From IMG/VR virus record IMGVR_UViG_3300021600_000017, positions 1 to 32,359 of that record: a stretch of 32,359 bases of DNA. One strand, 5' to 3'. Under the pieces are notes generated by a model that saw only the letters and a list, made by a program, of their open reading frames with translations, was not told the DNA's origin and ran no database searches. Shown in pieces: positions 21,690 to 32,345 of this stretch. Origin of the DNA: a virus. The translations under genes were made by a program, and so were the position numbers. Each line of letters opens with the position of its first letter. The first letter of the stretch is position 1.

Positions 21690-22089
21690 GGGGGTGTTTT
21701 TGGATTTGACAGGTATTGGCTGAGGATCAAGGGCACGTGGGGACTGAACTAATCTCCTTAAAAACTGGTTTACTTTTATAGACGGCAACGTTTTATCAAA
21801 AATGGAAACTCTTGGATTAGTAAGAGAATCTGAAGTTACTGTAGCTTAATTTAAGTACGGAAACGGGGGGTCGGTCAGACAGATAGCCTAGCAACAGAAG
21901 TCGTTGATGAGTTGGTTTTCACTCTAAAAGAAAACAAAACGGGCGTGGTTCCCCGCAAGAACTACCACCGTCGCTGAGTGGTGTGAGAACTTAGATATTT
22001 CGGAAGGTATGACAAACCTTGACCTAAACGTGTAGTCCTTATCTGACAGGATAGACTGGACCGGAGTTCGAGTCTCCGCACCTCCACCA
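21690..22089 (+). ncRNA. ssrA: Phage-encoded tmRNA (one-piece)
   Basis: About 400 nt. The acceptor stem pairs GGGGGUG (21690-21696) with CACCUCC just before the encoded ACCA (end 22089). The 5' side has the tmRNA hallmark UUUGGAUUUGACAGG; the 3' side has GGAGUUCGAGUCUCC as T-arm. The tag frame begins with GGC at 21784, right after the UAGAC element, and runs 21 codons to UAA at 21847-21849; the peptide starts GNVLSKMETL and ends RESEVTVA. A GC-rich pseudoknot region (ACGGGCGUGG...CCACCGU, ~21940-21972) follows. It rescues stalled ribosomes with SmpB and marks the product for proteolysis. A clean host-type promoter and terminator flank it. Confidence 0.95.
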
Positions 22090-23417: not shown

Positions 23418-24307
23418 CAAATTTCTTCTTATAAGATAAGTTTTTTAAAAAAACGCTGAGATTATACGTTTATGTGAGGTATCTTTTGAAGGATTATTGT
23501 TTCCCTTCGTATCCACTTCCTTTTGAGAAGTAAACCTCAGTGACGATTATTTAGGTGAATCACTCCTTGAGATAATAGTTACTCTCTTATTACTTGACTC
23601 TCTCCGAGAATGCCTTCCCAGTTTGTCCTTGCGGGACTAGAGGTGTTTGGTAAGAATACGATCAGACTTGCGATCCTCTCGTGCAATGAACGGCTCATTA
23701 CTATGTAGTCACCTTTCACTATTATCTGACGGACACTTTTGCTTTATAGTTCTTAGTTTTACTTAATTTCTGTAAAGTTTTTGTGTTGTAGATTGTAGAA
23801 GTAGTGGTCCGTCTCGGGCTTCGTCATCTTTTGAACAACGAAATACTCAACTACTCCTTGAAATGTCCCCATTCCCATATTTTAAGATTACTTCGTGATT
23901 TACCCCTTGGTAGGTGATCGTCAAGGACAATGTCAGCACCACCTGTTTGTTGTCATACCTTTCGGTTTTAAGTACCCTTTAATATTGGGATCCGCAATAA
24001 CAATATTGGAAATACTGATTCTTGCATCATCCCTACGAGTTATTCCTATTGGAGTTCCCTCCTCAACAAGATGACCCACATCACCTCGTCACAAAATCAC
24101 TTTTCCTACACCGTTGGCCTCGGTACTAAAGATTTTGTGGTATCTCGCCTGTGTACTTGACCTCAATATTCCGAAGACTATTAAGACGCAAACCCGTTAC
24201 ACTTGGGGGTTCACTTTATCCTACTTTCGTAGTTTATTTTATGGACTATACACGGCCCAATATCTTTATCAGTTTCATTACTTACTCCTGAATGGATAAT
24301 ATTTAAA

Positions 24308-28527: not shown

Positions 28528-28552
28528 AATAGTTATTTTTATAATGTTTTTG

Positions 28553-28625
28553 CGGTCCCGACGGGATTCGAACCCGTATCTCGCACCGTGACAGGGTGGA
28601 ATTGTAACCATTCAACCACGGGACC
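28553..28625 (-). tRNA. tRNA-Asp (GTC)
   Basis: 73 nt: acceptor GGTCCCG/CGGGACC, anticodon loop CTGTCAC, T-arm ACGGG-TTCGAAT-CCCGT. Discriminator G, as usual for Asp. CCA not encoded. Confidence 0.95.
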
Positions 28626-28627
28626 AA

Positions 28628-28696
28628 GTTTATCAGTCTTTCCTGATCGTCACCCCTAATCCACAGGTATAAACCCGTATCGTAGTAAAGCTTGGT
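28628..28696 (-). other. Structured spacer RNA A between tRNA-Asp and tRNA-Glu
   Basis: No tRNA and no frame. Two competing closures are visible: AAGTTTA (28626-28632) with TAAA-G-CTT (28686-28693), and GTTTAT/ATAAAC (28628-28633 with 28669-28674), plus an inner ATCAG/CTGAT hairpin. It carries TCAGGAAAG, also seen in spacers B and C. Confidence 0.45.
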
Positions 28697-28705
28697 TGGC
28701 TATAG

Positions 28706-28777
28706 TAGTCCCACCGGGAATCGAACCCGACTTTCCAGGATGAAAACCTGACGACCTAACCGATAGTCGATGGGACC
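28706..28777 (-). tRNA. tRNA-Glu (TTC)
   Basis: 72 nt: acceptor GGTCCCA/TGGGACT (G1-U72), anticodon loop TTTTCAT, T-arm TCGGG-TTCGATT-CCCGG, discriminator A. CCA not encoded. Confidence 0.93.
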
Positions 28778-28781
28778 ATAT

Positions 28782-28858
28782 TGGAGCGGGTGGTGGGACT
28801 CAAACCCACAACATTCGCCTTGGAAGGGCGATGCTCTAATCAATTGAGCTACACCCGC
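28782..28858 (-). tRNA. tRNA-Gly (TCC)
   Basis: 77 nt with CCA: acceptor GCGGGTG/CACCCGC, anticodon loop CTTCCAA, T-arm GTGGG-TTTGAGT-CCCAC, then TCCA. The only tRNA in the window with an encoded CCA end. Confidence 0.95.
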
Positions 28859-28889
28859 AGTAATCGTCAAATGGTACATCAGTATAATC

Positions 28890-28954
28890 AAAGGGTAGAC
28901 ACGGGCCTAGCTAGCCATCTTTCAGGAAAGGCCCTTACTAATATTCTACCCTTT
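28890..28954. other. Structured spacer RNA B: perfect 10-bp closed stem
   Basis: AAAGGGTAGA (28890-28899) pairs perfectly with TCTACCCTTT (28945-28954), enclosing GGGCC/GGCCC (28903-28907 with 28930-28934). It fills the space between tRNA-Gly and tRNA-fMet. No tRNA features. Transcribed strand by context: minus. Confidence 0.6.
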
Positions 28955-28957
28955 TAG

Positions 28958-29029
28958 TTGCGGGAGAGGGATTCGAACCCCCGACCTCAAGGTTATGAGC
29001 CTTGCGAGCTACCACTGCTCTATCCCGCG
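28958..29029 (-). tRNA. Initiator-type tRNA-Met (CAT)
   Basis: 72 nt. CGCGGGA at the 5' end and TCCCGCA at the 3' end leave a C1-A72 mismatch, the bacterial initiator mark. The D-arm GAGCAGTGGTAGCTCG and the loop CTCATAA fit Bacteroidota fMet tRNAs. The anticodon stem is CAAGG/CCTTG, so only two of the three usual G-C pairs are present. CCA not encoded. Confidence 0.85.
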
Positions 29030-29040
29030 ATATATCTTAT

Positions 29041-29130
29041 ATTACCACTTCAGCCACATCGTGAAAGCCGCCCCTCACGCGTTGTTTAAAGGAATCCGAT
29101 TGCGGCCTCATCCTACTGAGTTATGGTAAC
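29041..29130 (-). ncRNA. tRNA-like structured RNA D (90 nt, no T-loop)
   Basis: Minus strand GTTACCA pairs with terminal TGGTAAT (7 bp, G1-U like other tRNAs here). A D-arm-like CTCAGTAGGATGAG follows, then a long arm closed by GCCGC/GCGGC around ~30 nt. The usual TTCGA T-loop is absent; a CAC-GAT-GTG hairpin stands in its place. Confidence 0.5.
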
Positions 29131-29134
29131 ATTG

Positions 29135-29209
29135 TGGTGAGGGGATGGAATCGAACCACCGGCACAAGGGGTTTCCGTCCCTTTGCTCTACCTACTGAGC
29201 TACCGCACC
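29135..29209 (-). tRNA. Unusual tRNA-Phe-like gene with 8-nt anticodon loop
   Basis: 75 nt. It aligns with Bacteroidota tRNA-Phe (GAGCAAAGG...CCTTGTG), but the anticodon stem AAGGG/CCCTT closes an eight-base loop ACGGAAAC, with no U33. If read as Phe the anticodon is GAA; GGA or CGG are other readings. The acceptor GGTGCGG/CCTCACC has a C-T mismatch, and there is one extra C between T-arm and acceptor. It may be a frameshift-suppressor-like tRNA or a decaying gene. Confidence 0.7.
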
Positions 29210-29217
29210 AAATTAGA

Positions 29218-29351
29218 GATAGTGTTGGAGTACCCGTCTCGCTCCAATCTTAACAGCTTTCCTGAGTTTTATGAGGCCTCGGCTGAAAGGGTGATGAATT
29301 CCGATTCCATCCTGGATTGTCGACATCCGTTGGGTGGGGAAAACCACTATC
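29218..29351. ncRNA. Structured spacer RNA C (134 nt)
   Basis: Closed by GATAGTG/CACTATC (29218-29224 with 29345-29351). Inside: TTGGAG/CTCCAA (29225-29230 with 29242-29247), a long hairpin CTTTC-CTGAG...CTCGG-CT-GAAAG, and GGAT/ATCC. No frame or tRNA. It lies just downstream (minus strand) of the boxA-like site at 29364. Confidence 0.55.
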
Positions 29352-29363
29352 AAAATCATTAAT

Positions 29364-29375
29364 ATTTCAAAGAAC
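29364..29375 (-). promoter_or_regulatory. boxA-like site of the tRNA cluster transcript
   Basis: Minus strand GTTCTTTGAAAT, same as at 24308-24319. About 215 nt after promoter P3. Confidence 0.6.
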
Positions 29376-29392
29376 TTACTTGTAGTTTAGTA

Positions 29393-29429
29393 GTTGACTC
29401 AAACTCTCGTTTCACCATCTTGAGTCAAC
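29393..29429. other. Hairpin F in the tRNA leader
   Basis: GTTGACTC (29393-29400) pairs perfectly with GAGTCAAC (29422-29429); 21-nt loop. Confidence 0.6.
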
Positions 29430-29483
29430 AGGTTAATGCACTTTACGAGTTTCCCGTTTCTTACCACCACAATATTTTTAAAC

Positions 29484-29564
29484 GAACAAGGTAGGACTTA
29501 CACTCTGTCTTGCTTTCCATCTCAAGAGAAGCCTATTACCAGTGGGTTGGTGGTTACCTTGTTC
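29484..29564. ncRNA. Structured RNA E (81 nt) at the start of the tRNA transcript
   Basis: GAACAAGGTA (29484-29493) pairs perfectly with TACCTTGTTC (29555-29564), 10 bp, enclosing ~61 nt. It is the first element after promoter P3. No frame and no T-arm. Confidence 0.6.
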
Positions 29565-29596
29565 AAACTTTTTCCTAACCCCCGTTGTTTCTCTTA

Positions 29597-29628
29597 CAAA
29601 GATATGTAATCACTTTTGATTTACCAAA
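29597..29628 (-). promoter_or_regulatory. Host-type promoter P3 of the tRNA cluster
   Basis: Minus strand TTTG (29628-29625), 20-nt spacer, TATCTTTG (29604-29597). Confidence 0.8.
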
Positions 29629-29685
29629 CACTTTGTAAATTATTTTTTATTTTTTTTTAAGGTCGTTTTTTTCGTCCTTAAAGAG

Positions 29686-29765
29686 TAGTCCGGGTGGGAC
29701 TCGAACCCACAACCATATGGACTGCGGCTTAAACACAGCGTGTATACCAATTCCACCACCGGACC
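29686..29765 (-). tRNA. tRNA-Leu (TAA)
   Basis: 80 nt: acceptor GGTCCGG/CCGGACT (G1-U72), anticodon arm CTGTG-TTTAAGC-CGCAG with TAA, variable region TCCATATGG, T-arm GTGGG-TTCGAGT-CCCAC. CCA not encoded. Confidence 0.93.
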
Positions 29766-29777
29766 ATTTTAACCATT

Positions 29778-29789
29778 ATGTCAAAGAAC
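29778..29789 (-). promoter_or_regulatory. boxA-like site before tRNA-Leu(TAA)
   Basis: Minus strand GTTCTTTGACAT between promoter P4 and the tRNA; third copy of this element. Confidence 0.6.
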
Positions 29790-29806: not shown

Positions 29807-29836
29807 CAAAGATACTAATCTTTTTGAGACTACAAA
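29807..29836 (-). promoter_or_regulatory. Host-type promoter P4 of tRNA-Leu(TAA)
   Basis: Minus strand TTTG (29836-29833), 18-nt spacer, TATCTTTG (29814-29807). Confidence 0.75.
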
Positions 29837-32326: not shown

Positions 32327-32345
32327 CGGCAGTGATGATCTGCCG
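32327..32345. other. Hairpin at the right edge, next tRNA spacer
   Basis: CGGCAG/CTGCCG 6-bp stem with TGATGAT loop. It continues the pattern of structured spacers between tRNAs; the rest is outside the window. Confidence 0.5.

Follow-up and report, generated by a model that had tools for sequence, protein, structure and literature searches.

Small structured RNAs in a phage tRNA array

Annotations of phage transfer RNA (tRNA) arrays usually list the tRNAs and leave the spacers between them empty. The array of the IMG/VR virus record IMGVR_UViG_3300021600_000017, whose spacers are occupied by compact closed RNAs, raises the question of whether these spacers are filler or genes. To answer it, we analysed the whole 32,359-nucleotide (nt) stretch of this record (hereafter the window), which includes tailed-phage head genes, a transfer-messenger RNA (tmRNA), and a GOLLD RNA. 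The array spans positions 28552–29765 on the minus strand and reads, from 5′ to 3′, Leu, promoter-like site, sF, sE, sD, tRNA-Phe homologue, sC, Met, sB, Gly, Glu, sA, and Asp, where sA to sF are the spacer units (Table 1). ARAGORN called five of these tRNAs (Leu, Met, Gly, Glu, and Asp) and Rfam added the tRNA-Phe homologue. The host is probably a member of the Bacteroidota, because the terminase has distant homologues (25–30% identity) in isolated phages, including Flavobacterium phages, and the promoter-like sites are of the Bacteroidota type.

Judging from the comparison with other phages, the spacers hold small structured RNA genes rather than filler, because dozens of related phages have preserved the units. 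At least four small RNAs of the array have comparative support (sA, sB, sD, and sE) and sF is a fifth; the spacers of such arrays probably carry many more families. The initial annotation, made from the letters of the window, had taken the spacers for RNAs that have a role, a reading well supported by the conservation and compensatory changes in relatives. It had named stems not conserved in relatives as the adverse outcome, and we found the opposite, since the stems are kept with compensatory changes. It overlooked sA, which is among the best conserved units, and the regular alternation of tRNAs and units that it described is broken by three units in tandem (sF, sE, and sD) and by a gap of only 4 nt between Gly and Glu.

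Distribution in related phages

Folding energies of single sequences give little support (z between +0.34 and −2.64, depending on the unit), so the case rests on relatives. We fetched 119 related loci using two small proteins adjoining the array and compared each spacer with them by blastn: sE was found in 41, sB in 31, and sA in 25, while sC, sD, and sF were found in few. We then scanned 2.9 million viral contigs with sequence patterns, which recovered 93 stretches for sE, 56 for sD, 54 for sA, and 39 for sB. The relatives in which sA, sB, sD, sE, and sF recur are uncultured phages, and the units are always on the tRNA strand. Within 300 nt of sA, sB, and sE, 238 tRNAs are on the same strand and none on the opposite one. 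A blastn search of 50,697 isolated-phage records returned nothing for sA and sB, and only short matches at chance level for sE. The latter, the only unit searched in the GTDB genomes, had no match there. None of sA, sB, sD, sE, and sF matched Rfam, even at a permissive E-value (up to 10), and at this value none of the six units, sC included, matched the tRNA model.

The distribution of the units is patchy. Of 23 long records (92–304 kb), 13 carry sE, 8 carry sB, 12 carry sD (two of them partial), and 9 carry sA (again two partial), with at most one copy of each unit per record; a second, divergent sE occurs on one shorter contig. These conserved families, absent from Rfam 15, are thus mixed and matched as single copies in phages of up to ~300 kb. 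The tRNA neighbours also change between phages, and many gaps between units and tRNAs are of 0–13 nt. The tRNA downstream of sA is Asp, Ile, Met, Gly, or Glu, and that downstream of sE is Phe, His, Met, or Ile, whereas sB comes after Met or Ile and in many phages starts 0–3 nt past the tRNA. In a few loci, sE has no ARAGORN tRNA within 3 kb. When the spacers from all loci were clustered, more candidate families that recur came to light (sJ, sK, sL, sM, sN, and sO); another candidate, sI, proved to be coding.

Three of the units are more conserved than third codon positions nearby. Element identity exceeded the third-codon-position identity of a flanking 90-amino-acid gene in 205/205 phage pairs for sE, 103/103 for sB, and 76/76 for sA (384/384 overall), with mean identities of 0.89, 0.88, and 0.95, respectively, against 0.60, 0.63, and 0.72 at third positions. 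Conservation extends beyond the helices, with loops kept as well as stems. Together with the compensatory changes, this conservation in relatives goes far beyond chance. The possibility that the units are chance inverted repeats in filler, which the modest folding z-scores of single units would favour, is therefore practically negligible: conservation above third positions and compensatory changes refute it for sA, sB, sD, and sE, with sC outside this result.

Folds of the individual units

The fold of sE was derived from 37 distinct sequences and comprises an outer stem (29466–29472/29380–29386), a long hairpin (29393–29402/29420–29429), and an H-type pseudoknot (29445–29449/29406–29410). The hairpin had been described as 8 base pairs (bp); it exists and is a perfect 10 bp. 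The pseudoknot pairs CUCGU with ACGAG, replaced in two sequences by CUUGU with ACAAG. With the pseudoknot included, 95.5% of the cells are paired and changes on both sides of pairs number 50, against 17.5 in shuffles; all controls with slid partners were less than 50% paired.

The 10-bp closing stem of sB (28890–28899/28945–28954) is perfect, as originally described. Across relatives it is paired at 7/7 positions in 24/24 variants, three positions being compensatory (GGGUAGA/UCUACCC, GGGUGAA/UUCACCC, GGGUGGA/UCCACCC, and GGAUGAA/UUCAUCC). Because a one-base indel shifts the 5′ arm, its register was picked per sequence between offsets, and two registers cover all 24. The inner stem is GGGCC/GGCCC or GGGCU/AGCCC, and the pair closing the tetraloop is C-G or U-A.

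In the 20 sequences of sA, 99.2% of the cells are paired, with 10 changes on both sides against 2.2 in shuffles. Most of these are in one hairpin (28632–28647); the sequence outside it is nearly invariant, so that the fold there is less probed. A pseudoknot between the loop and GGUU is possible. A closing stem ACCAAG/CUUGGU was rejected because its pairing depends on bases that begin tRNA-Asp and does not persist in arrays where sA is followed by a different tRNA. We also observed a 9-nt complementarity between sA and sB (UCAGGAAAG / CUUUCCUGA), both nearly invariant (p ~0.01 for one pair). This pairing is a lead only, and is not obligatory, because each unit occurs without the other.

The 43 sequences of sD show changes on both sides in 14/23 predicted pairs. 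Its 7-bp closing stem (29218–29224/29345–29351), confirmed in the window, varies as GAUAGUG/CACUAUC, GAUAAUG/CAUUAUC, and GACAAUG/CAUUGUC. An 11-nt complementarity of sD to the T arm of tRNA-Phe was discarded, being lost in the relatives of sD. The perfect 10-bp closing stem of sF (29484–29493/29555–29564), likewise verified, covaries from GAACAAGG/CCTTGTTC to GAATAAGG/CCTTATTC, GGACAAGG/CCTTGTCC, and GGATAAGG/CCTTATCC; the support for sF is thinner than that for sA, sB, sD, and sE. The stem of sC (29041–29047/29124–29130) exists, and reaches the 7 bp initially given for it when one G.U pair is counted on the minus strand. The last hairpin of the initial annotation (32327–32345) is a real inverted repeat, but it lies within the codons of a protein gene, at the end of a reading frame terminating in IATRAADHHCR and a stop; among its 24 relatives, nearly all differences fall at third positions, and we rejected it as an RNA element.

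Table 1. Features of the tRNA array and associated sites (window coordinates)
Feature	Positions	Strand	Remarks
Promoter-like site, Bacteroidota type	29807..29836	-	TTTG-N-TAnnTTTG, upstream of tRNA-Leu; pattern scan, consensus match only
tRNA-Leu (UAA)	29685..29765	-	ARAGORN, Rfam
Promoter-like site, Bacteroidota type	29597..29628	-	heads the sF-sE-sD...Asp array; pattern scan
sF, structured RNA	29484..29564	-	10-bp closing stem; 5 distinct sequences
sE, ~95-nt RNA	29378..29476	-	outer stem, hairpin stem, pseudoknot stem
GTTCTTTGA motif	29367..29375	-	between sE and sD; putatively boxA-like
sD, 134-nt structured RNA	29218..29351	-	covarying 7-bp closing stem
tRNA-Phe homologue	29135..29209	-	Rfam tRNA 43 bits; 8-nt anticodon loop ACGGAAAC; missed by ARAGORN
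sC, closed unit	29041..29130	-	5′ part D-arm-like; relatives are identical copies only
tRNA-Met (CAU)	28957..29029	-	ARAGORN, Rfam
sB, 65-nt RNA	28890..28954	-	closing stem, inner stem GGGCC/GGCCC, nearly invariant UUUCCUGAAAGA
tRNA-Gly (UCC)	28782..28858	-	ARAGORN, Rfam
tRNA-Glu (UUC)	28705..28777	-	ARAGORN, Rfam
sA, ~72-nt RNA	28626..28704	-	occupies the entire Glu-Asp spacer
tRNA-Asp (GUC)	28552..28625	-	ARAGORN, Rfam
Hairpin outside the RNA system	32327..32345		coding sequence, 3′-terminal part of a protein gene on the minus strand

Promoter-like sites and a boxA-like motif

A promoter-like site precedes sE in 62/65 distinct relatives (~6 expected from background), at a median of 82 nt upstream. 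In 40 of the same 65, a boxA-like motif occurs 18–23 nt upstream of sE. In the window, this motif (GTTCTTTGA/GTTCATTGA) is found at 29367–29375 and 29781–29789. The sequence GTTCTTTGACATATTG is also found upstream of the 23S ribosomal RNA (rRNA) in some Bacteroidota, and the motif before sE is perhaps an antitermination boxA. We keep this as a weak lead, because the 16-nt rRNA-spacer pattern is not specific: only 11 of its 112 places precede a 23S.

A model for the array and its alternatives

How might these RNAs be made, and what might they do? On comparative grounds, our favoured and fairly probable reading is a stable-RNA operon, belonging to a phage of the Bacteroidota type, in which tRNAs and small structured RNAs are co-transcribed and trimmed by the enzymes of tRNA maturation, and in which the small RNAs act in trans. 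The data show the strand linkage, the conservation, the covarying structures, the promoter-like sites, and the patchy single-copy distribution, whereas processing, abundance, trans action, and target are inferred. The array from sF to Asp would be read on the tRNA strand from the promoter-like site at ~29600, together with the tRNAs. Because the linkers between units and tRNAs are often of 0–13 nt, ribonuclease (RNase) Z acting at the 3′ end of the upstream tRNA and RNase P at the 5′ end of the downstream one could free many units (tRNA punctuation); with such gaps to many flanking tRNAs, excision as discrete small RNAs is plausible. The closing stem would then shield the freed unit from exonucleases. 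Action in trans is suggested by the single copies, the exchange between phages, the changing tRNA neighbours, and the conservation of loops. In infected cells, the RNAs would most likely bind a protein of the host or of the phage, or else the translation machinery, as decoys or regulators, possibly against RNA-targeting defences. A more specific version is a tentative possibility: about a dozen small RNA genes, unrelated to one another, would form a cassette that phages exchange. Their RNAs, matured by tRNA processing, would work in trans, either as decoys or inhibitors directed at host defence or to reprogramme translation. If true, the cassette would do with RNA what the accessory anti-defence islands of other phages do with proteins.

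Several observations weigh against a stable-RNA operon acting in trans. The phage pairs and the sequences are related, so the counts given above are not independent and overstate the support, which the slid and shuffled controls address in part. The distances of sE to tRNAs are also asymmetric: it lies within 15 nt of the downstream tRNA in 30/61 cases and of the upstream tRNA in none, and therefore tRNA punctuation cannot make both of its ends. Finally, the hairpin and the boxA-like motif in the block of sE agree with a function in cis during transcription. The main rival, above all for sE, holds that the units act in cis within the precursor and help the tRNA transcript in antitermination, folding, or processing, in the manner of the boxB/boxA of rRNA leaders or of put-like RNAs, with no independent life. 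Many arrays are indeed headed by a conserved block of promoter, hairpin, GTTCWTTGA, and sE, every unit is on the tRNA strand, and the occurrence of GTTCTTTGACATATTG before 23S rRNA agrees with such a role. Yet long records have at most one copy of each unit, the sets of units differ between phages, their tRNA neighbours change, sE is found in loci where ARAGORN sees no nearby tRNA, conservation goes beyond the helices, and the boxA resemblance suffers from the low specificity of the rRNA-spacer pattern. We regard the cis role as rather unlikely.

That the units derive from tRNAs, either as decayed copies or as tRNA-like decoys for host tRNA-cutting enzymes, is improbable. The start of sC is D-arm-like, altered anticodon loops are seen in the adjoining tRNA-Phe homologue, and some relatives encode RNAs whose unusual internal parts are enclosed by a tRNA acceptor and T arm. 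However, sA, sB, sD, sE, and sF obtain no tRNA score at E up to 10, and their conserved folds, with a pseudoknot and nested hairpins, are not cloverleafs. Even less credible is that the units are self-cleaving ribozymes trimming tRNA 3′ ends. Theta ribozymes, which resemble the hepatitis delta virus (HDV) ribozyme and occur in gut phages, do this from a position directly 3′ of phage tRNAs (PMC10879173), a place that sB shares in many phages. Their fold is a nested double pseudoknot in which the first strand pairs internally and a catalytic C stands ahead of P2. Nevertheless, no unit matched an Rfam ribozyme, and a home-made descriptor of the HDV-like fold, used without a positive control, gave 0 matches (0.3 on average in shuffles), so that the double pseudoknot of theta ribozymes was not found in the units. 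The first strand pairs with the last in sB, sD, and sE, unlike the order in HDV, and sE is never close to an upstream tRNA.

Relation to known phage RNAs

Phages are already known to encode RNAs whose function is unknown close to their tRNA islands (GOLLD, ROOL, theta ribozymes, and the T4 stable RNAs). What is new is how densely small RNA genes, unrelated to one another, fill the spacers as a modular set, although a prior description outside Rfam is possible. In phage T4, species 1 and 2 are small stable RNAs of unknown function co-transcribed with the phage tRNAs. The parallel with T4 drawn in the initial annotation holds for the context, since the units also lie inside a phage tRNA transcription unit according to the strand count, but not for the sequence: no homologue of sA, sB, or sE was found in the isolated-phage records, where we assume T4 to be present. 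With the families described here, the function of small stable RNAs in phage tRNA clusters, an old question, becomes testable.

GOLLD and ROOL are often found near tRNA islands (PMC12286853). The window has a single match to the GOLLD model (RF02032), at 23453–23858 (−), with 325 bits for the 416-position conserved 3′ domain (threshold 150 bits). It has the same strand as the array and lies ~5.5 kb downstream of it. Of 18 long related records, 14 have GOLLD, and sE is present in 13 of these 14; conversely, GOLLD accompanies sE in 13/14 sE-bearing records of the first set. It is nevertheless distinct from the units: GOLLD exceeds 400 nt and forms a multimeric cage, whereas the units have 65–150 nt and none matches its model.

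The freshwater-1 RNA (RF02979) is, like the units, a short structured RNA of unknown function located between tRNAs in related arrays. Its 62-position model (threshold 72 bits) has no match in the window and finds matches in two related loci (L174:1101–1162 and L151:4650–4711). There, it sits inside sM, a larger conserved inter-tRNA unit of ~157 nt, of which the Rfam model seems to cover only the 3′ part. No sequence relation to sA, sB, sD, or sE was seen. Orphan RNAs such as freshwater-1 thus gain a genomic home, and covariance models and size predictions are supplied for the families. We made 44 tests for mimicry of, or antisense to, Bacteroidota rRNA; four matches had p values of up to 0.05, but correction left them without significance.

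Other RNAs of the window and of related arrays

ARAGORN gave no call for the tmRNA of the window (21690–22089, +), which is above the Rfam threshold with 94.8 bits. The tRNA-Phe homologue belongs to a group with 8-nt anticodon loops (ACGGAAAC, CCGGAAAA, ACGGAAAA, and CCCGAAAA), whose other members are in five related loci (L086, L095, L026, L046, and L088). They have C in place of U33 and co-varying 5-bp stems, and could be frameshifting tRNAs or have escaped an anticodon nuclease. Homologues in other phages have a normal 7-nt UUGAAAN loop, some with a shortened arm. Five further RNAs of related loci (L008:3602-, L086:635-, L160:6831- and 7186-, and L199:11819-, in loci oriented with the array) resemble tRNAs in their acceptor stem (AGUCAGG...CCUGACU) and T arm, but their internal domains are unusual; one of them has two T-arm-like hairpins and another is seemingly without an anticodon arm.
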